DNA from: a virus
Direction: 5' to 3' (one strand)
Length of the DNA: 26,916 nucleotides
IMG/VR virus record: IMGVR_UViG_3300031857_001136
Span: 1 to 26,916 of that record
Made by a program: the position numbers and the translations under genes. The notes beneath the pieces were generated by a model. That model saw only the letters and a program-made list of their open reading frames with translations, was not told where the DNA came from and searched no databases. The number at the start of each line of letters is the position of its first letter. Positions within the stretch are counted from its first letter, which is position 1. Shown here in pieces: positions 5,567 to 26,916 of this stretch.

Positions 5567-5805
5567 TGGCAAGTCTATCAGAATATTTTAAGATACATCG
5601 ATATCAATCAAAATACAATATCGGTGATCGTGTTACAGGCAAATGGAACAAGATTCCTTTTGTGGGTACAGTGGGCAATGATACTGAAATCAATCAGATT
5701 GAAGGCCCTCGTATTAGTGTGCATTTAGATTTACCAATCAAGTATCAGAACAAATTTCATACAATTATATTTGTTAAGCATAAGGATGTTAAATATTTCA
5801 AATGA
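5566..5805 (+). CDS. Small beta-rich conserved phage protein (79 aa)
   Basis: TAATG overlap with the preceding gene and ATGA-type overlap with the next. Core YNIGDRVTGKWNKIPFVGTV, then GPRISVHLDLP and HTIIFVKHKDVKYF: a short all-beta pattern reminiscent of SH3/KOW-like barrels, with GDRV-G and a terminal V-H-D. Similar proteins occur in T4-like phages; role unknown. Confidence 0.78.
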   Translation: MASLSEYFKIHRYQSKYNIGDRVTGKWNKIPFVGTVGNDTEINQIEGPRISVHLDLPIKYQNKFHTIIFVKHKDVKYFK

Positions 5806-6647
5806 TACGACATGATTGGACACAACCATTACCAAAATCTGAGATTTTAGATTTGTCCAATAATGTATGCTATGATAAGTTTTTAGACAGAAACGTTGAA
5901 CATAGCGTATCTACCTATCCGGATGATGCAGAAGCATATAGATTGTTATCTCAATACTATAGTATTTCTCCTTATAACATAGCTATAGGTTATGGGTCAT
6001 CTGATATAATACTACGTATCTTAAAATTATATCAAGGTAACTCTTTAAAGATTGTTAGCCCAACTTGGCAACTGGCTCAACTATATGCACATCATATAGG
6101 GTATGAGATTAAAGATGATGCAGATATTTTATACATAGCAAACCCTAACGGCTTGACCGGTAAAGCCTTATCTAAAAATGAAATCTTGTCCCTATTACCC
6201 ACTTACAAGTTAGTCATAGTAGATGAAGCCTATTGTGATTTTAGTGATTGCTCTGTACTGGATACTTCTATTACTGCTGACAATTTAATTGTAGTGAAAA
6301 CACTAAGCAAAACGATAGCATCTCCTGGATTAAGATTTGGATACTGCTTTTCTAATTCAGATATAATTAATAGAATACAAAACGTAAGACCAGGCTATGT
6401 AACTACAAATGCTACTATACCTGCTCTTAACAAACTGTTACCTCAAATAGGTATGCATATTAGTCGTATGTTAGAAACTAGAAACTACATTGAGGATAAG
6501 TATGATGTAGTACCTTCTGAAGGAAATTATGTATTGTTTAAAACTAGATATAGTTTACCTGTTAAGATGAAGGAAGTTAACGAGTTGTTTAGAATGTCGT
6601 TAACTGATATTGATACATTCAAGAAATTCGAAAATGAACTCAGATGA
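5802..6647 (+). CDS. HisC-like PLP-dependent aminotransferase
   Basis: Fold-type I aminotransferase of the histidinol-phosphate type. The motifs run in order: YPDDAEAYRLLSQYY (39-53), the PLP-phosphate loop GYGSSDIILRIL (63-74), NPNGLTGK (114-121, for the usual NPNNPTG), DEAYCDF (141-147), the Schiff-base lysine in TLSKTIASPGLRFGY (Lys170), and a C-terminal strand LFRMSLTD with the carboxylate-binding Arg264. At 281 aa it is shorter than bacterial HisC (about 350), but both ends look intact. It overlaps the radical SAM gene, so the two probably act together. Amino acceptor unknown. Compared with the ligase it uses more AGA and ATA codons, suggesting later acquisition. Confidence 0.88.
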   Translation: MIRHDWTQPLPKSEILDLSNNVCYDKFLDRNVEHSVSTYPDDAEAYRLLSQYYSISPYNIAIGYGSSDIILRILKLYQGNSLKIVSPTWQLAQLYAHHIGYEIKDDADILYIANPNGLTGKALSKNEILSLLPTYKLVIVDEAYCDFSDCSVLDTSITADNLIVVKTLSKTIASPGLRFGYCFSNSDIINRIQNVRPGYVTTNATIPALNKLLPQIGMHISRMLETRNYIEDKYDVVPSEGNYVLFKTRYSLPVKMKEVNELFRMSLTDIDTFKKFENELR

Positions 6648-7437
6648 GTTAAGACGCCTGCAAGAACAGGGTGCGGTTGATTTATATTCTGCATTACGTA
6701 GTGTAGAAATCAATCCTACGGAACTATGTAACAGAGCCTGTTCCTTCTGTCCTCGAGTTGATCCTAATATCTACAAGAATCAGAAAAAACATATTGATCC
6801 CGATCTATGTACACTATTAGGTGAGCAGTTATCAACATTTGGGTTTGATGGCAGGATAGGCTTTGTGGGTTTTGGTGAACCATTGTTACATCCTAATATA
6901 GCAGAATGTGTGCGTAATATCAAACAATCATGCCCAACAGCTAAATGGATAGAGATTAATACAAACGGTGATTTGTTAACTAGAGACATTGCTATTGATC
7001 TTGCTAATGCAGGATGTACTACTATAACAGTTAGTATGTATGACACAGATGCTACTACTTATTTTATTGAAATGTTAGATGGTGTAAAGATAGAGCTAGT
7101 GTTAAAACATCAATATGATATTGCTAACATAAAAATAATTAATAGGATAGATATCATACAACAGACCAAGGTACTAAACATATCTCGTCCTTGTTACATC
7201 CCGTTTTATAAAATATTTGTTGATTGGAATGGAGATTACTTACTATGCCAACAAGATTGGGGCAAAACTACCAATGTGTATAACATAAAGAATACCCCGG
7301 TCATTGACTATTGGTTATCCAAATTGACTGAGTATAGAACGAATCTATCAATGGGTAATAGGATACAAAATCCATGTGACAAATGTGACATTGACGGGAC
7401 TGTATATGGGAAATCTAGTTTTGATTTGTTCGTATAA
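6634..7437 (+). CDS. Radical SAM protein with SPASM-like C-terminal Cys cluster (267 aa)
   Basis: The N-terminal radical SAM core carries ELCNRACSFCPR, giving Cys32-x3-Cys36-x2-Cys39 for the [4Fe-4S]-SAM cluster, followed by the SAM-contacting GFGEPLLHP (about 79-87) and EINTNGDLLT. The C-terminal part adds Cys187, Cys205 (LLCQQDW) and Cys248-x2-Cys251 (PCDKC) in the spacing of SPASM/twitch auxiliary clusters, which often occur on peptide- or small-molecule-modifying enzymes. The start is the ATG at 6634, 14 bases inside the upstream gene; an upstream in-frame TTG at 6610 is less likely. Translationally coupled to the aminotransferase; substrate unknown. Confidence 0.87.
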   Translation: MNSDELRRLQEQGAVDLYSALRSVEINPTELCNRACSFCPRVDPNIYKNQKKHIDPDLCTLLGEQLSTFGFDGRIGFVGFGEPLLHPNIAECVRNIKQSCPTAKWIEINTNGDLLTRDIAIDLANAGCTTITVSMYDTDATTYFIEMLDGVKIELVLKHQYDIANIKIINRIDIIQQTKVLNISRPCYIPFYKIFVDWNGDYLLCQQDWGKTTNVYNIKNTPVIDYWLSKLTEYRTNLSMGNRIQNPCDKCDIDGTVYGKSSFDLFV

Positions 7438-10900: not shown

Positions 10901-12100
10901 ATGACAGAAGAAACCAAATTAAAACATTGTAGCTTTTGCGGCAACAGTAAAGAAGCAGTTAAAAAATTAGTTGTAGGTGAGAATGTAGCTATATGTAGTG
11001 ATTGTGTAGAGCTATGTCAAGACCTTATTGCTGATGAAGTAGGCGACACCAAAGAAGAATTACAACCCGAATATGATGCTGAAACTATTAAAAAGTTTTT
11101 AGATGAGCATGTTATTGGGCAAGATTCAGCTAAGATGGTTATGAGTGTTGCTATTGCAAATCACTATAAACGTATTACTAATCCTCCAAAGAACTTAGAG
11201 ATTCAAAAGGGAAATGTTCTTATAGTAGGACCTACGGGTTCAGGTAAAACATTATTAGCTAAAACAGCTGCCAAGTATCTAAACGTCCCTTTCATAGTAG
11301 CTGACGCAACTAGCTTAACAGAAGCAGGTTATGTCGGTGATGATGTAGAATCAATGATTAGTATGCTATTGAATGCCGCCGGTGGTGACAAAGACTTAGC
11401 AGAACGTGGAATCGTATTTGTTGATGAAATTGACAAGATTGCACGTAAGGGTGAAAGTACTAGTATTACCCGTGACGTATCCGGAGAGGGAGTTCAACAA
11501 GCATTACTAAAGTTAGTTGAAGGTACTGTATGTCGTATTCCTAATAGTGGTGGAAGAAAACATCCTGGATCTGATATGTCTGAGATTAATACTAAAAATA
11601 TCTTATTCATTGCAGGTGGTGCGTTTGTTGGATTAAAAGAACTTATCACCAATCGTGTTAATGGTACAAGCATTGGATTTAATGCTAGTGTTAAAGACAC
11701 TAGAATTGAAGGTGACATGCGTGATGTTCGCCCGGATGATTTAACTAAATTTGGTATGATTCCTGAATTTATTGGACGTTTTACTACTACTGTCAGCATT
11801 GACAATCTTAATAAAGAACAATTAATAAGGGTCTTAACTGACGTTAAGAACAATTACATTAGCCAATATAAATATCTATTTGAGTTAGATAATATTACAC
11901 TAGAATTTACTGACAATGCGTTGGATCAAATTGCAGAAAACACTATCTCTCTTAAAACAGGGGCACGTGGACTTCATACTGAGATTGAAAGAGTATTGAT
12001 GCCACATATGTTTAAAGTAAGAACGTATGCTAAAAACGGGATTAAAACACTAAATATAGATAGAGTTGATGTAATTACACCAAAACCATTGTATGAGTAA
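10901..12100 (+). CDS. clpX: ClpX, ATPase subunit of the ClpXP protease
   Basis: AAA+ unfoldase that recognises tagged substrates and feeds them to ClpP. The N-terminal zinc-binding domain has Cys10/Cys13 and Cys32/Cys35. Walker A GPTGSGKT (110-117), pore-1 loop GYVG (143-146), Walker B IVFVDEID (171-178), RKH loop GRKHP (218-222), arginine-finger region PEFIGRF (288-294) and sensor-2 GARGL (354-358) are all intact. The IGF loop that docks on ClpP is present at 258-260. Length 399 aa against 424 in E. coli. No SD precedes the ATG; TTAAATA abuts it. It overlaps rpsU by 8 bases. Every catalytic element is present, so it should be active with the phage or host ClpP. Confidence 0.97.
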   Translation: MTEETKLKHCSFCGNSKEAVKKLVVGENVAICSDCVELCQDLIADEVGDTKEELQPEYDAETIKKFLDEHVIGQDSAKMVMSVAIANHYKRITNPPKNLEIQKGNVLIVGPTGSGKTLLAKTAAKYLNVPFIVADATSLTEAGYVGDDVESMISMLLNAAGGDKDLAERGIVFVDEIDKIARKGESTSITRDVSGEGVQQALLKLVEGTVCRIPNSGGRKHPGSDMSEINTKNILFIAGGAFVGLKELITNRVNGTSIGFNASVKDTRIEGDMRDVRPDDLTKFGMIPEFIGRFTTTVSIDNLNKEQLIRVLTDVKNNYISQYKYLFELDNITLEFTDNALDQIAENTISLKTGARGLHTEIERVLMPHMFKVRTYAKNGIKTLNIDRVDVITPKPLYE

Positions 12101-12314
12101 AAAAGGCAGACGAATTTTTGTTACAGACGGAAATGTAGATAAAGCTCTACGCAAGTTTAAGAAAAAGATAACCGAATTAGGTTTACTTCAAGAAGTCCGT
12201 GACCGCCAAGAATTTGTCAAACCTACTGTCAAACGTAAAATAGCAAAAAGCCAAGCTGTTCGCAGGTGGAAAAAGCACTTGCGTGACCAATCATTACCAC
12301 CAAAACAGTTTTAA
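12093..12314 (+). CDS. rpsU: Ribosomal protein bS21 homologue
   Basis: A 73-aa, strongly basic protein. NVDKALRKFKKKITELGLL, EVRDRQEFVKPTVKRKIAK and QAVRRWKKHL align along the length of bacterial bS21 (E. coli equivalents: VALRRFKRSCEKAG, EVRRREFYEKPTTERKRAK, AVKRHAKKL). bS21 sits near the anti-Shine-Dalgarno region of the 30S subunit and affects initiation; phage copies are known in aquatic phages and may favour phage mRNAs. The start overlaps the clpX end by 8 bases, so translation is coupled. The N-terminal MSKKGRRIFVTDG is longer and more basic than in E. coli. Confidence 0.9.
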   Translation: MSKKGRRIFVTDGNVDKALRKFKKKITELGLLQEVRDRQEFVKPTVKRKIAKSQAVRRWKKHLRDQSLPPKQF

Positions 12315-12315
12315 C

Positions 12316-12323
12316 CTAAATAC
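12316..12323 (+). promoter_or_regulatory. T4-late-like CTAAATAC
   Basis: CTAAATACTAT just after the rpsU stop resembles the T4 late -10 consensus. It lies about 95 bases upstream of hsp20. Low confidence, because the motif is short and AT-rich. Confidence 0.3.
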
Positions 12324-12343
12324 TATATTTTTTTACGTATTTG

Positions 12344-12352
12344 TGTTATAAT
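12344..12352 (+). promoter_or_regulatory. Extended -10 promoter for hsp20
   Basis: TGTTATAAT is an extended -10 element (TGn plus TATAAT) with no good -35. ATAAATAC (12351-12358) overlaps it, so it could instead be read as a late-type site. Either reading starts the message at about 12359-12363, directly before a stem-loop. Confidence 0.5.
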
Positions 12353-12362
12353 AAATACATAT

Positions 12363-12388
12363 TGTAGATGCCGATGGTCGGGTCTACA
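12363..12388 (+). promoter_or_regulatory. 5'-leader stem-loop upstream of hsp20
   Basis: TGTAGA (12363-12368) pairs with TCTACA (12383-12388), with an inner CCG/CGG helix. It begins within a few bases of the predicted transcript start, 30 bases before the SD. Confidence 0.5.
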
Positions 12389-12418
12389 CATAGTCATCTT
12401 GCTTAATAGGAGAAAAAC

Positions 12419-12856
12419 ATGACAAAAACTTTAACCCTTCGTTCCCTCGACATTCCGTCAATTCACAAATTTGGTATCGGTTTCGATAATATGTTTGATG
12501 AACTAATGCGAATTAACAATCAACAATCACTTAACTATCCCCCATACAACATTATAAAAACATCAGAAGATACCTTTTATATTGAAGTAGCAGTGGCTGG
12601 TTTCGGTGAAGGTGAAGTTGAAATTAACATTGACAATCAAGTGTTAGTTATCAAAGGTAAAAAAGAAGCAGAAATTATTGCTGAATATTTACATCAAGGG
12701 ATCAGTAACAGGGACTTCATGCGTGAATTTACTTTAGCAGAACATGTTGAAGTAGTTAATGCTGTCAATATGAATGGTATTCTTACTATCTATTTGGAGC
12801 GCAAACTCCCTGAAGAAAAGAAACCCAAGTCTATTGCAATTTCTTACACTAAATAA
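12419..12856 (+). CDS. hsp20: Hsp20 / IbpA-type small heat-shock protein
   Basis: ATP-independent chaperone that holds unfolding proteins. The alpha-crystallin domain spans about residues 40-130: YNIIKTSEDTFYIEVAVAGF, VEINIDNQVLVIKGKK, EYLHQGISNRDFMREFTLAE, then NGILTIYLER. The C-terminal tail carries KSIAI, an I-x-I-type oligomerisation motif. Length 145 aa is typical of IbpA (137 aa). SD TAGGAGA lies 7 bases before the ATG. Hsp20 genes are common in T4-like cyanophages, so this is family-typical, but here it sits between the bS21 and ClpS genes. Confidence 0.95.
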   Translation: MTKTLTLRSLDIPSIHKFGIGFDNMFDELMRINNQQSLNYPPYNIIKTSEDTFYIEVAVAGFGEGEVEINIDNQVLVIKGKKEAEIIAEYLHQGISNRDFMREFTLAEHVEVVNAVNMNGILTIYLERKLPEEKKPKSIAISYTK

Positions 12857-12862
12857 TATAAT
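12834..12862 (+). promoter_or_regulatory. Sigma70-type promoter for clpS
   Basis: TTGCAA (12834-12839), 17-base spacer, TATAAT (12857-12862). It spans the end of hsp20. A 6-bp inverted repeat ACACTA/TAGTGT (12846-12867) overlaps the -10 region. Confidence 0.6.
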
Positions 12863-12880
12863 AGTGTTTCGTTAAATAAA

Positions 12881-12904
12881 AGTGTGCGAGGAAACTTGCA
12901 CACT
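12881..12904 (+). promoter_or_regulatory. 10-bp stem-loop with GAAA tetraloop in the clpS leader
   Basis: AGTGTGCGAG (12881-12890), loop GAAA (12891-12894), CTTGCACACT (12895-12904); nine Watson-Crick pairs and one G-T. The loop is a GNRA type. No T-run follows, so it is not a terminator. It ends 17 bases before the clpS ATG. Confidence 0.8.
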
Positions 12905-12921
12905 ACTTCAAGGTATAAATC

Positions 12922-13227
12922 ATGGCACAGACCGAATCAAAAATTAAAATTAAACCTAATCTTAAATTACCAGAACCATCTATGTTCAAGGTAATTTATA
13001 TGAATGATGAACATACTAGTATGGATTTCGTAGTGCGTAGTTTAGTAGATCATTTCGGTCACAATACTGATACTGCCGCACATATTACTACAGGTATACA
13101 TGAGCAGGGCAGTGCTGTCGTAGCAGTTCTACCGTATGAAATTGCAGAACAAAAGGGTATTGAGGTAACACTTGATGCACGTAACGAGGGATTTCCGTTA
13201 CAAGTAAAGATTGAGCCAGAAGTTTAA
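12922..13227 (+). CDS. clpS: ClpS, N-degron adaptor
   Basis: Adaptor that delivers N-end-rule substrates, in bacteria to ClpA(P). The conserved core begins FKVIYMNDEHTSMDFVV (22-38) and contains the N-degron pocket residues Asn28, Asp29 and Met34; His60 in GIHEQG is the matching pocket histidine (E. coli Asn34, Asp35, Met40, His66). PYEIAEQKG (71-79) and the C-terminal FPLQVKIEP strand complete the fold. Length 101 aa against 106 in E. coli. The 21-residue N-terminal extension, which acts on the ATPase in E. coli, is Lys/Pro-rich here. No ClpA gene is in the window. SD is weak (AAGG, 8 bases before the ATG). Confidence 0.93.
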   Translation: MAQTESKIKIKPNLKLPEPSMFKVIYMNDEHTSMDFVVRSLVDHFGHNTDTAAHITTGIHEQGSAVVAVLPYEIAEQKGIEVTLDARNEGFPLQVKIEPEV

Positions 13228-13233
13228 ACTTCT
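13218..13233. repeat. Perfect 16-bp palindrome at a tail-to-tail gene junction
   Basis: AGAAGTTTAAACTTCT contains the stop codons of clpS (+, 13225-13227) and the minus-strand gene (13224-13226), overlapping at TTTAAA. No T-tract; it may form a hairpin in both transcripts. Confidence 0.7.
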
Positions 13234-13919
13234 ATTTCTATTCGTTTTGGCCAATATGGATTTTTGTTAAAACAAGCGTTATTAACATAGTTGATACCGT
13301 TAATATTGGTATCAACCATTTTGTTTGAGTTACCATATATCCAAGTAACTATCTTGTTTTCTGTATCATTAATTAGAGCAGAGTTCAATCCAACGTAATC
13401 AGGTAAATTAGGTTCTTCCCCGTAGAATAAGTCAGCACAGGGAACACAACTAGACACAATTACAATCTTTTTTACATCCACGTGTAATTGCAATTTTTCT
13501 ATAGTTGTGTGTAGATAGTCTTGATCACCGTGTGAGTGATACCCAAGACGTATTTCATCGTCGGGATCTATCGGGGTATAGTTGCCATACCAACCGTTAA
13601 CTGCAACTAATGCTATACCATCTACGATAACAACATTGTTATGAAGATATACAACATTTTTTATTTTACTGGCTATCTTAGCTATTTGGTCTATCCTAGA
13701 TGCTTGTAACATTAATGACCCTATCTCCATAGAACCGTCAATGAAGAATACTCCATGATACTGGGCACTTAAATGTTCTAAAGTTTCTTCTAAAACTTTA
13801 AAATCATCGGTTATATTGCCTGCTACAATACAAAATAAACTAGTTGGTTTTCCTTCCCAATCTAGTTTATATTTGTAAGATAGTTCTAGGTCGCTAATTA
13901 TATCGAAACCTACCACCAT
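13224..13919 (-). CDS. Pseudo-metallophosphoesterase (calcineurin-like fold, metal ligands lost)
   Basis: The 231-aa protein follows the order of the intact metallophosphoesterase at 18780, but each metal-site motif is altered. SDLHLE becomes SDLELS (8-13), SGD becomes AGN (33-35), GNHE becomes GSME (62-65), HHAPS becomes SCVPC (157-161) and HGHMH becomes YGNSN (195-199). Structural segments are kept: NVVYLHNNVVIVDGIALVAV then NGWYGN, KIVIVSS, VTWIYGN. Thus the fold is probably retained while two-metal catalysis is lost, suggesting a binding or regulatory role. Expressed from the minus strand downstream of the Lys/Pro/Ala protein; no SD is visible and AATAAAC precedes the ATG. Identification rests on alignment by eye. 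Confidence 0.75.
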   Translation of the reverse strand: MVVGFDIISDLELSYKYKLDWEGKPTSLFCIVAGNITDDFKVLEETLEHLSAQYHGVFFIDGSMEIGSLMLQASRIDQIAKIASKIKNVVYLHNNVVIVDGIALVAVNGWYGNYTPIDPDDEIRLGYHSHGDQDYLHTTIEKLQLHVDVKKIVIVSSCVPCADLFYGEEPNLPDYVGLNSALINDTENKIVTWIYGNSNKMVDTNINGINYVNNACFNKNPYWPKRIEIEV

Positions 13920-13927
13920 GCAGTTTA

Positions 13928-14248
13928 TTACTGGGTAGCTTTTGGTGCTTTGGGTTTTGCTGGGGCTTTTTTAGCAACAGCTGGGGCTTTTGGCTTTGCT
14001 GGGGCTTTTGGCTTTGCTGGGGCTTTTGGCTTTTTAGATATCGGTGCTTGCTCAACTACCCCTGCAGGTACTACAGCTTCTGGAACAACTACAACGGTTT
14101 CAACAGCTGGTGCAGAATTGACAACCAAAGGAATTGGTGTAGTAGCTGCCGGCTCCGGTACTTTGTACGGGGCTGACACGTTTGCCTCAGTTGTTTCTAC
14201 AGGTTTGGCTTCGGGAACACCAAATAATTTTTTCAAAAAGTTTAACAT
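13928..14248 (-). CDS. Basic Lys/Pro/Ala-tailed protein (106 aa)
   Basis: I chose the ATG at 14248 because AAGGAGAAAATTATG gives an excellent SD; an in-frame ATG at 14266 lies before the SD. The N-terminus MLNFLKKLFGVPEAKP is a short amphipathic basic helix. The middle is Pro/Val/Thr-rich and uncharged, and the last 35 residues are repeats of PKAPAK, like histone-H1-type or bacterial nucleoid-protein tails. Electrostatic DNA or membrane binding is likely; the exact role is unknown. The repeats are encoded by perfect 18-bp tandem units. TAAATA just upstream of the SD could be part of a late promoter. Confidence 0.8.
   Translation of the reverse strand: MLNFLKKLFGVPEAKPVETTEANVSAPYKVPEPAATTPIPLVVNSAPAVETVVVVPEAVVPAGVVEQAPISKKPKAPAKPKAPAKPKAPAVAKKAPAKPKAPKATQ
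13980..14033. repeat. Three perfect 18-bp tandem repeats
   Basis: Unit GCTGGGGCTTTTGGCTTT at 13980-13997, 13998-14015 and 14016-14033. On the minus strand each encodes KPKAPA-type hexapeptides of the basic tail. Copy number could change by slippage. Confidence 0.95.
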
Positions 14249-14307
14249 AATTTTCTCCTTATACATCTATTTACTCTAGGAAAACCATAAAGATAAAATT
14301 TATAATC

Positions 14308-14315
14308 ATAAATAC
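14308..14315 (+). promoter_or_regulatory. T4-late-promoter-like ATAAATAC
   Basis: ATAAATAC ends 7 bases before the ATG at 14323, which has no SD. As at 9355, use as a late promoter would give a nearly leaderless message. Confidence 0.3.
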
Positions 14316-14322
14316 AAGTACT

Positions 14323-14814
14323 ATGTTTCACGGATCACCTACTCTAAAAGAACTAATGGCTTTGCCATTACCCACTATGCGTGAGCAAAAACGTCTAATG
14401 TTTAGGCCCTCACAATGGCAAGTTTCACACGTTTATACACTGATAAACGATAATGTTTTTCATAATATGTTAAAAAAACCGGAACTCATACTAAAATCAA
14501 GATGTAGAAAATATTGGGGAATGTGTATAGGATCACATGACAAGCTAAAAAACGGTAGTTATTGTAAGATTGAACTTATGGACAAGTGGATTAGTCCACA
14601 ATGGATGATAGCTACATTGGCACATGAAATGGTTCATCAATATCAATGGGATATAGCAGGGCCTGAACGTGAGGCAGAGGGATTAAATGCTATTATGAGT
14701 CATGGTCCAAGTTTCTTTCAGTTTCGTGATTTATTAAAAGAACACAATATCCCATTAAAAACGGCGCATTCTCAGCGCCGTTGGTATAAGCATCAAAGCT
14801 TGTTCAAATGCTAA
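14323..14814 (+). CDS. SprT-like zinc metalloprotease
   Basis: The zinc motif HEMVH (101-105) lies in LAHEMVHQYQWD, and a third ligand His127 is in MSHGPSFFQF, as in the SprT/Spartan family (HExxH plus a downstream HGxxF). An upstream beta region (CRKYWGMCIG, CKIELMDKWI) matches the family core. There is no signal peptide, so it acts in the cytoplasm. SprT-like proteases of other organisms digest DNA-protein crosslinks; here a role in replication or clearing host proteins is inferred. 163 aa, close to E. coli SprT (165 aa). The stop is directly adjacent to the stop of the convergent gene (TAATTA). In-frame ATGs at codons 12, 19 and 26 are alternative starts. Confidence 0.87.
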   Translation: MFHGSPTLKELMALPLPTMREQKRLMFRPSQWQVSHVYTLINDNVFHNMLKKPELILKSRCRKYWGMCIGSHDKLKNGSYCKIELMDKWISPQWMIATLAHEMVHQYQWDIAGPEREAEGLNAIMSHGPSFFQFRDLLKEHNIPLKTAHSQRRWYKHQSLFKC

Positions 14815-15894
14815 TTACTTTTTGATATTAGGATTGTCTACTACATTCCCGTTAACATCAACAAGAATAACATCTTTAGTACCCTTCTTACCGATAGCAC
14901 GATTCAATACAGATGCCATTGGTCTGATACCTCGAATACCCAAAGCCTTACTTAAACGACCTTTGTTATTACGTAATAACCAAACCATCATGTGACTTGT
15001 AGGGATATCTTCTTTACGAGTAATAACAGCATGACATTCAATACTAATGTTGTTCTCCACCTGATGATAATGTTTAGGCTCAAAGTCTTGGATAACAATG
15101 CCACCATGAGGATTAATGTCACTACCAAAAATAGCACTCATTGCTTCTTCTTCAGTAGGTTCAATAACAATCTCTTTACTTAGGAAATAACTTTTACCGT
15201 CAGGTTGTAATATAAGTTTAACTACTTTATCTTTTACTAATTTATCAATTATTTCACGTGCTTTGGCCCCAAACAATGAATCAGCAGATTCCCATGTTTC
15301 AGCACTTAGTTCTTTGATAGATACAGGTAATCTGCTCTTAGAGCTAGCTAATACAATATCTGCTTTCTTACGTTCAGCAACGTCAGAACCAGTTGGATAT
15401 ACTTGGTCAACGTTCTTAATTGTCATTGTTTTTCCACGTGGGTCTTTAAAAGTAACATTGATTAGTCCATACTTCTCAACCATACTTGCTAAGTATGAAG
15501 CAATTTCAGCTTCATTGCCTACACCAGCACTCTTTTCACCCTGTTGACCTGCATCTTTAATAATAACTTGTACAGGGCTACCGTCACCAAAAACGACACC
15601 ACCTAAGCTACTCTTGGCCGCTGCCGAATACTCTGGACCTGCATCTGGTAAATACTTTTTCAATATAGCCAAAACATCTTGTAGCAACGATGACCTAAAC
15701 TCACCCTTTTTAGCACCGTCTGGTATCTGTGTAACTACGCCGATTACATTACCATTAGGTTTTAAGTCTTCATACCCTGCTTGACGTAATACTTGTTCAA
15801 CCTGTGCCTTTGTAACGGGCGATGGTTCTTGCGAGTTCACTACTGTCGGGGCTTTTGCTTCAACCAAAGTGTTTGCAAATTCAATGTATCTCAT
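14815..15894 (-). CDS. Probable head-internal protein with PD-(D/E)XK-like core (359 aa)
   Basis: The N-terminus MRYIEFANTLVEAKAP resembles the capsid-targeting peptide of T4 internal proteins, and LVE-A (10-13) fits the T4 prohead protease rule of cleavage after (L/I)-x-E, removing 12 residues. The core contains GNEAEIASYL (126-135), then KKADIVLAS (176-184) and VSIKEL (191-196). Asp179 and Lys194, with a preceding acidic helix, match the spacing of PD-(D/E)XK nucleases with Ser in place of the second acid. The C-terminal 100 residues are basic (NNKGRLSKALGIRGIR). I infer a protein packaged in the head and ejected with DNA, perhaps a nuclease; neither cleavage nor activity is proved. Promoter elements lie upstream on the minus strand. 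Confidence 0.7.
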   Translation of the reverse strand: MRYIEFANTLVEAKAPTVVNSQEPSPVTKAQVEQVLRQAGYEDLKPNGNVIGVVTQIPDGAKKGEFRSSLLQDVLAILKKYLPDAGPEYSAAAKSSLGGVVFGDGSPVQVIIKDAGQQGEKSAGVGNEAEIASYLASMVEKYGLINVTFKDPRGKTMTIKNVDQVYPTGSDVAERKKADIVLASSKSRLPVSIKELSAETWESADSLFGAKAREIIDKLVKDKVVKLILQPDGKSYFLSKEIVIEPTEEEAMSAIFGSDINPHGGIVIQDFEPKHYHQVENNISIECHAVITRKEDIPTSHMMVWLLRNNKGRLSKALGIRGIRPMASVLNRAIGKKGTKDVILVDVNGNVVDNPNIKK

Positions 15895-15926
15895 ATATAA
15901 TATCTCAAATAGTTGATGAAGTGCTA

Positions 15927-15956
15927 ATTATAGCACCGATTTAGTATTTATCGCAA
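15927..15956 (-). promoter_or_regulatory. Promoter region for the minus-strand head-protein gene
   Basis: On the minus strand: TTGCGA (15956-15951), 18-base spacer, extended -10 TGCTATAAT (-10 at 15932-15927). The same stretch holds ATAAATAC (15951-15944), a T4-late-like motif, so two readings compete. GTGCTA/TAGCAC (15921-15936) forms a dyad over the -10 box. Confidence 0.45.
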
Positions 15957-15976
15957 ATTTTTAATAAAGGAAAGAT

Positions 15977-16573
15977 ATGAGTTTAGTGCCTATCGTTGTT
16001 GAGACTACAAGTAAAGGTGAACGTAGTTACGACATTTATTCACGTTTGATGCGTGACCGTGTAATTTTGCTTGAAGGCGAAGTACATGACCAAATGGCAA
16101 ATTTAATTGTTGCCCAACTATTGTTCTTAGAAAGTGAAGATAGTCATAAAGATATTTCAATGTATATCAATAGTCCAGGTGGTTCAGTTACTGCTGGTAT
16201 GGCAATCTATGATTGTATGCAATTTGTTAGCCCTGATGTACAAACAATTGTTATGGGTCAAGCCTGTTCAATGGGTAGTTTGCTTGGTCAAGCAGGAGCT
16301 AAAGGTAAGCGTTTTATCCTGCCCAATGCACGACATATGATTCACCAGCCCTCAGGTGGCGCACGTGGTCAAGCTACTGATATGGAAATTCAGGTTAAAG
16401 AGATTTTAGCCATGAAAAAGACATTGACACAAATCTATGTAGACCATAATAGTGCAGGAAAATCGTTTGAGGAGCTTGCAAAAGACATGGAACGTGACTA
16501 TTTTATGAGTGCAAGTGAGGCCGTAGCATATGGCCTAGCTGATAAAGTGTTGCAAAAACGCAACATGTCCTAA
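15977..16573 (+). CDS. clpP: ClpP protease subunit
   Basis: Serine peptidase that forms the degradation chamber of ClpXP/ClpAP. Catalytic Ser98 lies in GQACSMGS, His123 in MIHQPSGG and Asp174 in MERDYFMSA. The oxyanion/strand motif [10 protein letters not shown] (65-74) is intact. The protein starts [20 protein letters not shown], aligning with the mature N-terminus of E. coli ClpP (ALVPMVIEQTSRGERS), so it lacks the 14-residue propeptide and needs no self-cleavage. 198 aa. SD AAAGGAAAG precedes the ATG. It stands 3.9 kb from clpX with minus-strand genes between, so the two are not in one operon. Its stop is followed directly by an early-type promoter. Confidence 0.97.
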
Positions 16574-16575
16574 AT

Positions 16576-16604
16576 TTGACAATAAATGGGTTTGGGTCTA
16601 TAAT
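16576..16604 (+). promoter_or_regulatory. Early-type sigma70 promoter, copy 4
   Basis: TTGACA (16576-16581), 17-base spacer starting ATAAATGG, TATAAT (16599-16604), 2 bases after the clpP stop. Confidence 0.92.
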
Positions 16605-18649: not shown

Positions 18650-18783
18650 AATACATTATCAATTGGTCACAAAGTTATACATCATGGGTGACACATGCTG
18701 AAAAACTTTTAGAGTTAAGAATTGAACTAAGTGGTCTAAAAGACGCAAAAAAAGTAATTGAGAATATTAAAAAGAATTTATGA
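18646..18783 (+). CDS. Small helical protein (45 aa)
   Basis: ATGA overlaps with both neighbours (start 18646, stop 18781-18783). Starts MKYIINWSQSYTSWVTHAEK, then a Leu/Lys/Glu-rich helix (KLLELRIELSGLKDAKKVIE). The double coupling makes it a likely real gene. Function unknown. Confidence 0.7.
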   Translation: MKYIINWSQSYTSWVTHAEKLLELRIELSGLKDAKKVIENIKKNL

Positions 18784-19628
18784 AGATAGCATTGTGTAGT
18801 GACTTACACTTAGAATTCGAAGATATCAACCTCATCAATATAGAAAATGCTGAGGTTCTTATCCTTTCAGGTGACATTATGTTAGCGGAAGATTTACATA
18901 ATCATCCTCCTACTGTAGTTAGCCCATACGAATCTTATACTGAATTAGGTACAAGACAAAAAGCCGCACAACGATTCCGTAATTTTCTCAGTAGAGTAAG
19001 CAATGAGTTCCCTCATGTTGTTTATGTTGCAGGTAACCATGAATTCTATCACGGCAGATGGAATCAAAGTTTAGAACATCTACGTACTGAATGTGCCAGA
19101 TATCCTAACGTTTACTTTTTGGAACGTGAGATTAAGGTTATCAATGAAGTGTCCTTTATTGGTGCTACACTATGGACTGATTGTAATAAAAGTGACCCAT
19201 TAACATTACATGCATTATCCGACATGATGAATGATTACCGTGTCATTCGTAATGATGATTTAAATTACAGTAAATTACGTCCTGCACATACTGTAAAACG
19301 TCACCAAGAAACACTAGGTTATTTGAAAGCAGTTCTTCCTGATATTAAATACAATAAGATTGTATTTGTTGGGCATCATGCTCCCAGTGCAATGAGTACC
19401 CATGATAGATATAAACACAACGTTCATTCTATAATGAATGGTGGTTATCATAGTGAATTGAGTGAGTTCATTTTAAATCATCCTGAGATTGTATTATGGA
19501 CACACGGTCACATGCATGACCCATTTGATTACATGATTGGAACAACAAGAGTGGTTTGTAATCCACGCGGGTATTTAGGGGCTGACCCGCAAGCAGAAGT
19601 TTTTAAATTAAAATTTATTGATATATGA
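18780..19628 (+). CDS. Calcineurin-like metallophosphoesterase, intact active site (282 aa)
   Basis: All motifs of the two-metal phosphoesterase fold are present in order: DLHLE (Asp8, His10), SGDIM (Asp32), GNHEFY (Asn86, His87), GHHAPS (His199/His200) and HGHMH (His242, His244, His246). Likely a phosphodiesterase or phosphatase on nucleotides or nucleic acid; no specific substrate can be read. Coupled by ATGA to both neighbours. It is the best template for the ligand-less relative at 13224. Confidence 0.92.
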   Translation: MKIALCSDLHLEFEDINLINIENAEVLILSGDIMLAEDLHNHPPTVVSPYESYTELGTRQKAAQRFRNFLSRVSNEFPHVVYVAGNHEFYHGRWNQSLEHLRTECARYPNVYFLEREIKVINEVSFIGATLWTDCNKSDPLTLHALSDMMNDYRVIRNDDLNYSKLRPAHTVKRHQETLGYLKAVLPDIKYNKIVFVGHHAPSAMSTHDRYKHNVHSIMNGGYHSELSEFILNHPEIVLWTHGHMHDPFDYMIGTTRVVCNPRGYLGADPQAEVFKLKFIDI

Positions 19629-23807: not shown

Positions 23808-24175
23808 AAATGGAAACAGTAATTCTTCAACTTCTTATCTTACTTTATATCAAACACTGGTACATTGATTTTGTTAATCAGAACGATGCTGAGATAGCTA
23901 GTAAAGGTATCTATGGTGACAAACTAGGTATATTACATAGTGCCAAGCATGGCATTCTCACAGCACTATGTGTATTTTTTGTCACTGGATATATGTATTT
24001 GATTTACGCAATCATTTTAGGTGTGATTGACTTTGTTGCACATTATCATATTGATTGGGTCAAATCAAATTATGGTAACAATAACATCAAAACTAAAGAG
24101 TTTTGGAATCATTTAGGATTAGACCAACTAGCTCACCAATTGGTTTATCTATTCATTGCTTACATGATAAGTTAA
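23804..24175 (+). CDS. DUF3307-like membrane protein (123 aa)
   Basis: Multi-pass membrane protein. Charged and polar landmarks HWYIDFVNQND (18-28), SKGIYG, a His at SAKHGI, DFVAHYHIDWVK and LDQLAHQLVYL follow the DUF3307 family layout (H-DF-Q…K…H…H-IDW-K…DQ-H). Hydrophobic segments at about 4-17, 49-76 and 108-123. Function of the family unknown. The stop (24173-24175) overlaps the stop of the convergent gene within TTAA. Confidence 0.72.
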   Translation: MKMETVILQLLILLYIKHWYIDFVNQNDAEIASKGIYGDKLGILHSAKHGILTALCVFFVTGYMYLIYAIILGVIDFVAHYHIDWVKSNYGNNNIKTKEFWNHLGLDQLAHQLVYLFIAYMIS

Positions 24176-24483
24176 GTACTTGGTTTTCTAGTATAATCAA
24201 CTAAATTAAAATCTTCGCCAGAACCCACTAAACAAGTGATATCACCTTTAGTAGTGATTATAGACCAAGATTTAGTATTTGGATTAATCCACAAAGACAT
24301 TATACTACGAGCTTGGTCTGCTGTTTTGCCAATCAACAGTGGGCTCTCTCTGTATTTCTCTTTGAGTTTACCTACAATTTCTTTTGTATCTGAACAATAA
24401 AGTTCAGCGGTAATCATCTCTCCGGCGTTACTTTGTAGTGGCACGATAGACGCCATCCCAATCAGTAGGTAAATTGTTTTCAC
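24172..24483 (-). CDS. Small secreted/periplasmic protein (103 aa)
   Basis: Start is GTG at 24483 with SD AGGAG at normal spacing, both inside the end of the cyclase gene (56-base overlap). The N-terminus MKTIYLLIGMASIVPLQSNA is a typical signal peptide, probably cleaved after Ala20. The mature part contains Cys29 and Cys84, which could form a disulphide, and WSIITTKGDITCLVGSGEDF at the C-terminal side. Small exported proteins of this pattern occur in marine T4-like phages; function unknown. Translation is likely linked to the cyclase, which also faces the periplasm. Confidence 0.75.
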   Translation of the reverse strand: MKTIYLLIGMASIVPLQSNAGEMITAELYCSDTKEIVGKLKEKYRESPLLIGKTADQARSIMSLWINPNTKSWSIITTKGDITCLVGSGEDFNLVDYTRKPST

Positions 24484-26479
24484 GTAGTTCTCCTATTCTT
24501 TCTATCATTATATCATAATAGTCATCCATATGCGAATCAAATTCACCCTTTAGTTGGTCTATCATATGCAATGCCTGATCCCATTTCTGTTCACGGTAAT
24601 AATCTATCATCAAATCATGTATCTCACGTGCTGATAGATATTCTGTAATAGTACTAGGATCAGTCTTTAATGGTGTGTAGATATTCAATCCAATTGTCTT
24701 ACCCTTTACAGCAATACAATCTAACTCTAATGTAAAGATTTCATCTTTAACTTGCTCATTAGTATTAGGACCAATGATACATAACACACCATATCCTTTA
24801 GTCTGGCCTTCTAGCCTAGCCGCAGTAGATACACTATCACCTAATACGTCATAACCAAACTTAGTTTTAGCACCAATGTTACCGATCAATGTTTCACCTG
24901 TGTTAACACCGGCACCCATACCAACTGGTGGACGACCACTCGCTGTTAACTCTTTATTGAATTCTTCAATAGCATCAATCATTTGCATTGCAGTTATAAC
25001 CGCTGTTACTGCATGTTTAGGATCGTCTAATGGTGCACCATGTACATGTAAACTTGCATCACCGATGAACTTAATTAATGTACCATCGTTCTTTAATACA
25101 GGAACACTTAATGCAGTCATGTAGTCATTCATAATCTGTGTCAAGCCTTCAACGTCATCTCCGAATGACTCGCCTAAACTAGTGAAGCCACGCAAATCAG
25201 TCATAACAATAGATAATTCTCTACGTTCTCCTCCTAACTTAATTAGTGAAGGATCTTTCTGTAATCTTTCAACTATAGTTGGATTGACATAACTTCCAAA
25301 CTGTTTCTTAATTTGTTGTTTCTGTAAGAATTCACTTACAAACTTGACAGTATAAGCATGAAGATAAACCAAACCAATCCCAGTAACAGGGGCGGTAATA
25401 TCATAGAGCCATAGATTGGATGTGAATAGATACGATGCAATAAAATGACTAGAACCAAGAACAATAATAACTGGAATAAAAGCATATGTCCACCTTGATA
25501 ATAATATAACTAATAAACCTAAAGCTAGTATAGCGATAAGTTCCACACCATCAGCATAATCAGGACGCACAATAACAACATTGTTAAGCATCGTTCCTAT
25601 TATACTAGCTTGAACATCATGTGGCCATACTGATCCTTTACTTGTCGGTACAGGATTGTTTAATCCACTCGCAGTTAAGCCCACTATAACAATAGCACCA
25701 CCAAAGTCTTTTGGTAGATCCATTAAACTTACTGGTTTGCTTTGTTGACTGTAATCAATCCAAATACGTCCTAAATTATCAGTAATAATAGTACCAAACT
25801 TTGGTATACGCATTTTTTCTACACCATTCTCGTTAAGCTTAACTTGGAATGTTGTATCTCCTGCGGCCACTCTTAGTACTTCCATACTTAAACTTGGGTA
25901 GAGTTTACCATCTACACTAGCAATCAATGGGATACGTCTATTGACACCATCTATCTCTGGTAATGTATTAGCTGTACCTACACCATATGCACTGTTTTCT
26001 AATAGAGGAACGTTAGCAATGATTCCTGGATACTGAACTATTCTATCTAACCATTCAGGAGCTAATACTGCTGCACCTGGATTACGTGGAATATTCTTTG
26101 TTTTGTCACTAGGTATATTAGGAAGAATAACAGGATACTGTTTCATAATATATGCTAACTTACCATCTTGACCACTTCTATCACTATCAGGCATTAGTAC
26201 GTTGAATACAACAAGACCTGCATTACGTTTGTATAAGTCTTCTATTATTTTAGCGTATTCGTTGCGTGGTAATGGCCACTGACCATACTTGTCCAATGTT
26301 GCTTCATCTACATTGACTGTGTAGATGTTGTTTTCTGTTGGAGCTTTATTAGTGATAAGAGTATCAAAATATCTTAATCTAACTGATTCTATGAATTGAG
26401 AATCTGCTACACGAACCGAAAGAACTAGTACTAGCGTTAGTAGCGCCGACCAGGGACTGAGAATTATTTTTTTAATCAT
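24428..26479 (-). CDS. CHASE2-sensor transmembrane adenylate/guanylate cyclase (683 aa)
   Basis: N-terminal membrane segment (about 10-22), an extracytoplasmic CHASE2 domain (about 28-305; VNVDEATLDKYGQWPLPR and VIVGLTASGL are family hallmarks), three membrane segments (about 311-329, 333-352, 358-376), a class III cyclase domain (about 420-605) and a helical tail (611-683). Metal-binding Asp428 (TDLRGFTS) and Asp474 (KFIGDAS), base-contacting Lys470 and Asp548, and transition-state Arg555 are present; Lys/Asp suggests ATP. The usual catalytic Asn is Ser551 (GDSVSTAARLE). It should sense a periplasmic signal and make cAMP, perhaps weakly. Such a receptor is unexpected in a phage. Confidence 0.92.
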   Translation of the reverse strand: MIKKIILSPWSALLTLVLVLSVRVADSQFIESVRLRYFDTLITNKAPTENNIYTVNVDEATLDKYGQWPLPRNEYAKIIEDLYKRNAGLVVFNVLMPDSDRSGQDGKLAYIMKQYPVILPNIPSDKTKNIPRNPGAAVLAPEWLDRIVQYPGIIANVPLLENSAYGVGTANTLPEIDGVNRRIPLIASVDGKLYPSLSMEVLRVAAGDTTFQVKLNENGVEKMRIPKFGTIITDNLGRIWIDYSQQSKPVSLMDLPKDFGGAIVIVGLTASGLNNPVPTSKGSVWPHDVQASIIGTMLNNVVIVRPDYADGVELIAILALGLLVILLSRWTYAFIPVIIVLGSSHFIASYLFTSNLWLYDITAPVTGIGLVYLHAYTVKFVSEFLQKQQIKKQFGSYVNPTIVERLQKDPSLIKLGGERRELSIVMTDLRGFTSLGESFGDDVEGLTQIMNDYMTALSVPVLKNDGTLIKFIGDASLHVHGAPLDDPKHAVTAVITAMQMIDAIEEFNKELTASGRPPVGMGAGVNTGETLIGNIGAKTKFGYDVLGDSVSTAARLEGQTKGYGVLCIIGPNTNEQVKDEIFTLELDCIAVKGKTIGLNIYTPLKTDPSTITEYLSAREIHDLMIDYYREQKWDQALHMIDQLKGEFDSHMDDYYDIMIERIGELRENNLPTDWDGVYRATTK

Positions 26480-26532: not shown

Positions 26533-26916
26533 TTATGTTGATGAATATCCTGCGGCTGCTAATCCAGTTCTAGCAGTACCTACACCTGCAATATCAGTAC
26601 CCATAACACCGGTGTTTGATATTAGGTTGGTGATTGAAGTGGGCCCACCCCCATAACCAAATATAGCTTTATCACCACCGTAACTTGCGGCTGCGTAAGA
26701 AGCCCTTGCAGACCGGGTTTGTCCGGGACCTGTATAAGATACAAATGTAACATCAGAAGCTACTACACCTGTATTTGATACTAGATTGGTTGCGTACAAT
26801 AATTCTCCTCCTTGTATAACGCCGAATCCAAATATAGCTTTATTACCACCATAACCTGCGGCAGCCAATCCCCATCTAGCTGTTCCAACTCCGGTGGTAT
26901 CAGTTGCAACAACACC
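26533..26916 (-). CDS. Repeat protein, propeller-like, C-terminal part (incomplete at window edge)
   Basis: Open to the window end on the minus strand, 128 residues visible. Two full copies and a partial copy of a repeat of about 57 residues: (N/D)KAIFG(Y/F)G, TNL(V/I)SNTGV, a variable Asp-Thr part, then AR...L/YAAA(G/S)YGG. This resembles blade repeats of beta-propeller proteins and the repeat proteins found in aquatic phage genomes, probably a virion fibre or adhesion protein. Ends YSST. The true start is outside the window. Confidence 0.75.
   Translation of the reverse strand, partial: GVVATDTTGVGTARWGLAAAGYGGNKAIFGFGVIQGGELLYATNLVSNTGVVASDVTFVSYTGPGQTRSARASYAAASYGGDKAIFGYGGGPTSITNLISNTGVMGTDIAGVGTARTGLAAAGYSST
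26533..26916. repeat. Coding repeats of about 170 bp
   Basis: Plus-strand segments CCAAATATAGCTTTA recur near 26660 and 26828, spaced by the 57-codon repeat unit, with further homology over the flanks. The array probably extends beyond the window. Confidence 0.7.

Follow-up and report, generated by a model that had tools for sequence, protein, structure and literature searches.

A receptor that reads the outside of the cell is a rare possession for a lytic phage, and a complete one encoded close to the end of a viral contig raises the questions of whether the gene belongs to the phage, what the protein senses, and what it sends into the host. The window analyzed here is the whole 26,916-nucleotide stretch of an IMG/VR virus record, with the receptor gene on its minus strand.

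Architecture and ownership of the receptor cyclase

The open reading frame at 24428..26479 (minus strand, as are all features of this gene) is complete with an ATG start and encodes a CHASE2-class III nucleotidyl cyclase receptor of 683 amino acids. From the N to the C terminus it comprises a predicted transmembrane helix (residues 9-25, 26405..26455), a CHASE2 domain (PF05226, residues 15-324, 25508..26437; Pfam E 5.4e-38, 131 bits against a cut-off of 26) predicted to be periplasmic, three modeled transmembrane helices with a linker helix (residues 309-394, 25298..25555) ending in the stretch KQQIKKQFG (387-395), and a class III catalytic domain of the D/S type (residues 415-602, 24674..25237), in which Guanylate_cyc matches residues 421-594 far over its curated cut-off (Pfam E 1.8e-16). 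A variable helical tail follows (residues 603-683, 24431..24673), and its terminal WDGxYRATxK is common to the window protein and its bacterial relatives. The viral family phrog_35576, which has no listed function, matches the protein end to end (PHROGs, E 1.9e-218).

The AlphaFold model, built with 48 phage and bacterial relatives, has a mean pLDDT of 88 and places helix 9-25 ahead of a periplasmic CHASE2 domain, helices 309-327, 334-355, and 362-394 after it, and then the cyclase fold. In this predicted topology membrane helices flank CHASE2, and the cyclase is C-terminal and cytoplasmic. Foldseek matches of the cyclase part to CyaB, CyaC, and Cya2 span TM scores of 0.8-0.87 normalized by target (CyaB, PDB code 3r5g, 0.87; CyaC, PDB code 1wc1, 0.85; Cya2, PDB code 2w01, 0.84). 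An earlier note, made from the letters of the window alone, had read CHASE2, membrane segments, and a class III cyclase into one complete receptor, and Pfam, PHROGs, and the model agree with it.

The gene is a phage gene. A first scan of IMG/VR finds at least 383 relatives of the cyclase, two further scans add Melnitz-like and HTVC008M-like sets, and the gene is annotated in the isolate phages Melnitz (OM43 host) and HTVC008M (Pelagibacter host). Along 20.3 kb a 49-kb sister contig, G001, is 99.93% identical to the window, with no mismatch (100%) in the last 2.5 kb; it runs through the cyclase and 27 kb past it, where it carries curli genes and others that are phage-like. A chimeric contig edge made of bacterial DNA, which the position of the gene 400 nt from the contig end might suggest, is thus ruled out for practical purposes by the continuation in G001, the hundreds of viral relatives, and the isolate genomes. 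The earlier note had claimed a phage-encoded CHASE2 cyclase and proposed a check of viral databases, which yields these many relatives; the cases it had named as refuting the claim (a chimeric edge, no viral homologues, bacterial flanks) all fail on G001 and the viral relatives. Compared with relatives whose proteins are 88-93% identical, dN/dS is ~0.07-0.10 over the whole gene and ~0.03 in the catalytic domain, which indicates strong purifying selection and no passing insertion. A scan for promoters and terminators around the gene gives counts not above those of shuffled sequence.

Directly downstream lies a small ORF (24172..24483, minus strand; GTG start, signal peptide, phrog_25396) that overlaps the cyclase gene by 56 nt. 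Window bases 24145-24396, most of this ORF, are deleted in the otherwise 99.9% identical G001, so the small exported protein is dispensable; near relatives likewise show no copy of it in this position, and it was rejected as a cyclase partner.

Elsewhere in the window, a near-complete protein quality-control set is encoded at 10901-16573, with ClpX (NCBIfam equivalog, 513 bits, over its cut-off), ClpP (NCBIfam subfamily PRK00277, over its cut-off), a ClpS-like protein, and an IbpA-like small heat-shock protein. A search of 50,697 phage records finds ClpX in 66 (E <= 1e-40), in no case with as much as 60% identity. Sequence searches with ClpX and the ORF at 14815-15894, made for the host of the window phage, return distant phages only. 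At 5802-7437 the reading frames of a HisC/CobD-like aminotransferase and a radical SAM protein with a SPASM/twitch-type C terminus overlap, perhaps forming a modified-nucleotide or surface-modification pair.

The curli/FecR gene cluster

The window stops inside a curli/FecR gene cluster, the rest of which is visible in G001; the earlier note lacked this context because the window ends before it. The order on the minus strand of G001 is CsgF, CsgG, a curlin repeat protein, FecR, a weakly curlin-like protein, a 162-amino acid ORF, a 1,986-amino acid RCC1/fn3 protein, a glycine-rich repeat gene, and the cyclase, with Pfam matches on the cyclase strand to CsgF (PF10614), CsgG (PF03783, E 3e-53), Curlin_rpt (PF07012), and FecR (PF04773). 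The neighbors that the earlier note had given the cyclase, an exported small protein and a fiber-like repeat gene, are both present; the first is the dispensable ORF described above, and the second (26533..26868, minus strand) is the end of an RCC1-like/glycine-rich repeat adhesin- or fiber-like gene, cut by the window edge at 26916, a truncated piece of the RCC1/fn3 region between the curli operon and the cyclase. In the lineage of the window phage, the genes inserted between curlin and cyclase encode RCC1-propeller/fn3/glycine-rich repeat proteins of very large size (window 26533-26916; L358:3247-9204).

With these genes co-located in the sister contig, the window phage belongs to the phage T8SS-FecR-adenylate cyclase module of PMC9599517, the paper that in 2022 described adenylate cyclases of phages next to genes for curli (type VIII secretion) and FecR. 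Of the retrieved phage loci, 133 extend 6 kb or more upstream of the cyclase, and csgF, csgG, curlin, and FecR all lie upstream on the cyclase strand in 115 of these; the set is elsewhere in the stretch in 6, FecR is upstream without the full set in 5, and none is seen in the stretch in 7. Exactly one FecR gene is present in 17 of 18 phage records examined.

A pair of conserved ~100-amino acid proteins flanks csgF in most phage loci (e.g. L082:10210-10848; L358:14757-15080 and 16267-16584). The pair sits where PMC9599517 puts a histidine kinase preceding the module, and the two L358 proteins checked have no histidine kinase Pfam match; the Melnitz member looks like a membrane helix with a coiled coil (holin-like?). 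In three phage loci (L031:4056, L046:2571, L052:4350) the main CHASE2 cyclase is preceded, at a distance of a few kb, by a second cyclase-like ORF.

The phage FecR proteins carry a curlin-like ending. The tail motif, hydrophobic-x-hydrophobic-x-Q near the C terminus, was defined after viewing a few tails, and with related sequences that are not independent it is counted in phage loci in 124/168 FecR (for example L082:12804-13913 and L083:9560-10666), 232/324 curlins, 1/150 CsgG, 0/138 CsgF, and 9/2017 other ORFs, and in bacterial loci in 0/38 FecR and 30/1981 other ORFs. The FecR of the window phage has a related ending followed by an extension (MVFIKQNSGIRKR), which the strict pattern leaves uncounted.

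In bacteria the two halves of the cluster are found apart. A bacterial FecR adjoins the CHASE2 cyclase in 28 of 73 loci with room for it (28 of the 38 FecR ORFs seen there are adjacent), and a Campylobacterota cluster has the order CHASE2-FecR-phosphodiesterase-TPR (PMC9239204). No curli genes are present in the 80 bacterial cyclase loci, and neither FecR nor CHASE2 occurs within ~10 kb of 10 bacterial CsgF (curli) loci, on which ground a bacterial curli operon was rejected as the source of the whole module. The phage cluster therefore looks like two bacterial modules joined in the phage, although more genomes could yet reveal a bacterial ancestor, and the curlin-like FecR tail is consistent with a physical join of the two.

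The explanation preferred here, held with moderate confidence, is a phage inner-membrane adenylate cyclase receptor that reads the state of the phage curli/FecR envelope machine and signals to a host receptor by cAMP. A receptor for an ordinary outside signal (a nutrient, redox state, or the host surface), placed in a curli-bearing hypervariable region without reading curli and tuning host metabolism by cAMP, is a more doubtful account. It draws on the separation of the bacterial cyclase and curli loci and on those phages in which the cyclase stands apart from the curli set; the 6 loci with the set elsewhere and the 7 with none likewise count against a curli relay. It accommodates less well a linkage that very divergent phages retain and a curlin-like FecR tail acquired in phages only.

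A variant active site exchanged between sensors

Mapping of the catalytic residues by alignment to CyaB and CyaC gives Asp-428 and Asp-474 (metals), Lys-470 (substrate), Asp-544, Ser-551, and Arg-555, with Ile-469, Ser-476, His-478, and His-480 as further residues of the D/S site. Every sequence compared, 206 from phages and 80 from bacteria, keeps Asp-428, Asp-474, Lys-470, and Arg-555. Asp-544 (codon 24848..24850, minus strand) occupies the substrate-specifying position, which is Thr or Ser in related bacterial enzymes. Class III cyclases have their transition-state Asn where Ser-551 (codon 24827..24829, minus strand) stands in the window protein and in all 101 D/S-type sequences; judged from the alignment, this Ser marks a variant active site within the class III fold family and does not exclude the protein from that fold. 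Lys-470 and Asp-544 are the adenine (ATP)-reading pair of class III cyclases, and the predicted product is cAMP formed from ATP. Loss of the transition-state Asn is expected to lower activity, which counts against the preferred explanation.

The 206 distinct phage cyclases divide into 100 of D/S, 75 of S/N, and 31 of T/N type, and the 80 bacterial relatives into 73 S/N, 6 T/N, and a single D/S. The D/S type is invariant or near-invariant also at Gly-436, Ile-469, Ser-476, His-478, and His-480, the two histidines forming a His-x-His motif. Its lone bacterial carrier is a SAR116 single-cell genome (L101, contig CACHEI010000004.1) with a catalytic domain at 62% identity; a search for a second D/S-like catalytic domain among 385 genomes of the carrier's class gave nothing closer than 47%, and a control genome outside the 385-genome draw gave 48%. 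The neighbors of this bacterial enzyme are a C39-peptidase ABC transporter, an HlyD protein with a cyclic-nucleotide-binding domain, and FecR, so that a CHASE2-FecR cyclase is again tied to a secretion system. The stretch L101:1328-8706, which holds the transporter, the cNMP-binding-HlyD fusion, the cyclase, and FecR, may encode a type I secretion system gated by cyclic nucleotide.

The catalytic domain behaves as a cassette. Compared with the window protein, L010, whose catalytic domain is of the ordinary T/N type, shows identities of 70% (sensor and membrane part), 57% (catalytic domain), and 76% (tail), and L049 is 51%, 89%, and 45% identical in the same order; L219 and L235 have sensors 35% identical and catalytic domains 96% identical, with a boundary near residues 383-408 before which their nucleotide identity is 33-62% and after which it is 79-89%. 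The D/S type originates once on the catalytic tree, where it forms a single fully supported clade. The CHASE2 tree requires 16 changes to account for it (286 sequences) or 10 (43 representatives), and a single D/S clade is rejected there (p-AU 1e-53, 43 representatives). The conflict between the trees, together with the jumps in identity, indicates that the sensor is kept and the output domain is exchanged at the conserved linker, the cassettes joining at the KQQIKKQFG stretch at the end of the linker helix.

It is unlikely that the D/S cyclase has an altered chemistry (slow turnover, another product, or a regulatory pseudo-cyclase) because normal cAMP would harm or alert the host. Asp-544, Ser-551, His-478, His-480, and Ile-469 are invariant across the 101 sequences of the one clade, the type is nearly confined to phages, and selection on the gene is strongly purifying. 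However, both metal aspartates, Lys-470, and Arg-555 are retained, half of the phages have a cyclase with an ordinary site (T/N or S/N) at this place in the operon, which argues that the system needs no altered chemistry, and the single bacterial D/S enzyme adjoins a protein with a cyclic-nucleotide-binding domain. A decoy that floods the cell with cyclic nucleotide and confuses Pycsar- or CBASS-like immunity is very improbable: the catalytic domain is distantly homologous to PycC (best E 8e-11, whole protein, partial match), but ordinary adenylate cyclases give better matches in Pfam and the PDB, a decoy would not be expected to have a membrane sensor, and the fixed linkage is to secretion genes and not to defense genes. 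Membership of Pycsar was rejected, the PADLOC PycC models matching weakly and partially through the generic cyclase fold, and nothing in the analysis supports the idea of a role in cyclic-nucleotide defense, which the earlier note had raised together with host metabolism and lysis timing as processes that an outside signal would alter.

A putative trans-envelope relay and its relation to known systems

The trans-envelope relay of the preferred explanation is proposed by analogy with S. meliloti, in which CHASE2 cyclases raise cAMP, the signal being perceived via the outer-membrane barrel NsrA (PMC13001267), and deletion of CHASE2 gives constitutive cAMP (PMC5498481). The infecting phage would build an outer-membrane CsgG/CsgF channel and curlin-repeat proteins, and periplasmic FecR, via its curlin-like end strand, would couple to the channel or the fiber. 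CHASE2 would then sense the state of the assembly, or an outside ligand coming through the channel, and control a cytoplasmic homodimeric cyclase converting ATP to cAMP, which would act on a host CRP-type protein and alter host transcription in infection. A host receptor is suggested as the target because the cyclic-nucleotide-binding domain PF00027, the one domain family searched, is not found in 31 phage records (mostly partial, with two complete isolate genomes). The metallophosphoesterase at 18780-19628 was rejected as a cAMP phosphodiesterase, since its CpdA score is 21 bits where the cut-off is 225. Two published observations count against parts of the scheme: the S. meliloti FecR gene beside cyaD1 is not required for signal perception (PMC5498481), which speaks against FecR as adaptor, and infection by Melnitz did not make the cells clump (PMC9004378). 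The whole, offered tentatively, would be a phage-evolved Asp/Ser and His-x-His active site without the catalytic Asn, swapped between sensors and working in a relay from CsgG/CsgF through the FecR curlin tail and CHASE2 to a cyclic nucleotide, by which the phage may sense the outside of its host while replicating inside.

If this is true, phages whose hosts are very abundant aquatic bacteria conserve a set of channel, adaptor, and receptor, and the virus runs its own signaling across the host envelope. Both the recombining cassettes and the unusual active site can be tested directly and at little cost, and they give access to the phage curli genes, whose function is unexplained. The phage CHASE2 cyclase as a category is already reported and not unprecedented. 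PMC7029224 describes CsgF/CsgG in pelagimyophages, and PMC9004378 describes them in Melnitz with a proposed role in lysis; these two and PMC9599517 name the gene as adenylate cyclase only or leave it unmentioned, and their relevant passages hold no mention of CHASE2, the active-site type, cassette exchange, or the FecR curlin tail. What is new relative to these papers is the near phage-specific active-site type, the exchange of catalytic cassettes, and the FecR-curlin tail.

The closest known system is the pelagiphage/methylophage curli module (HTVC008M, Melnitz, and HTVC023P-type), with which the window phage shares the gene order csgF-csgG-curlin-FecR-curlin-cyclase; the window cyclase is 42% identical to that of Melnitz and 36.5% to that of HTVC008M. 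The D/S site is common to the window and Melnitz proteins, whereas HTVC008M is of S/N type, and the window phage differs from the module in the large RCC1/fn3 genes inserted before the cyclase. Bacterial CHASE2 cyclases (S. meliloti CyaD1/CyaD2/CyaK and the alphaproteobacterial FecR-CHASE2 pairs) have the domain order, C-terminal tail, and FecR neighbor of the window protein at 30-36% identity; however, 79 of 80 keep the Asn (S/N or T/N), and no curli genes lie alongside. The SAR116 cyclase resembles the window protein in its D/S catalytic domain, the only bacterial one found, and in having CHASE2 and an adjacent FecR, and differs in its bacterial CHASE2 part (~20% to the window) and the lack of curli neighbors. 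PycC of Pycsar is related by distant homology of the catalytic domain, a partial and weak match, and the window protein differs from it in being a membrane receptor. The class IIIb enzymes CyaC, CyaB, and Cya2 share with the window protein the fold, the metal and Arg residues, and the substrate Lys of adenylate cyclases, and the window protein departs from them at two positions, the Thr/Ser that sets specificity being replaced by Asp and the Asn by Ser.
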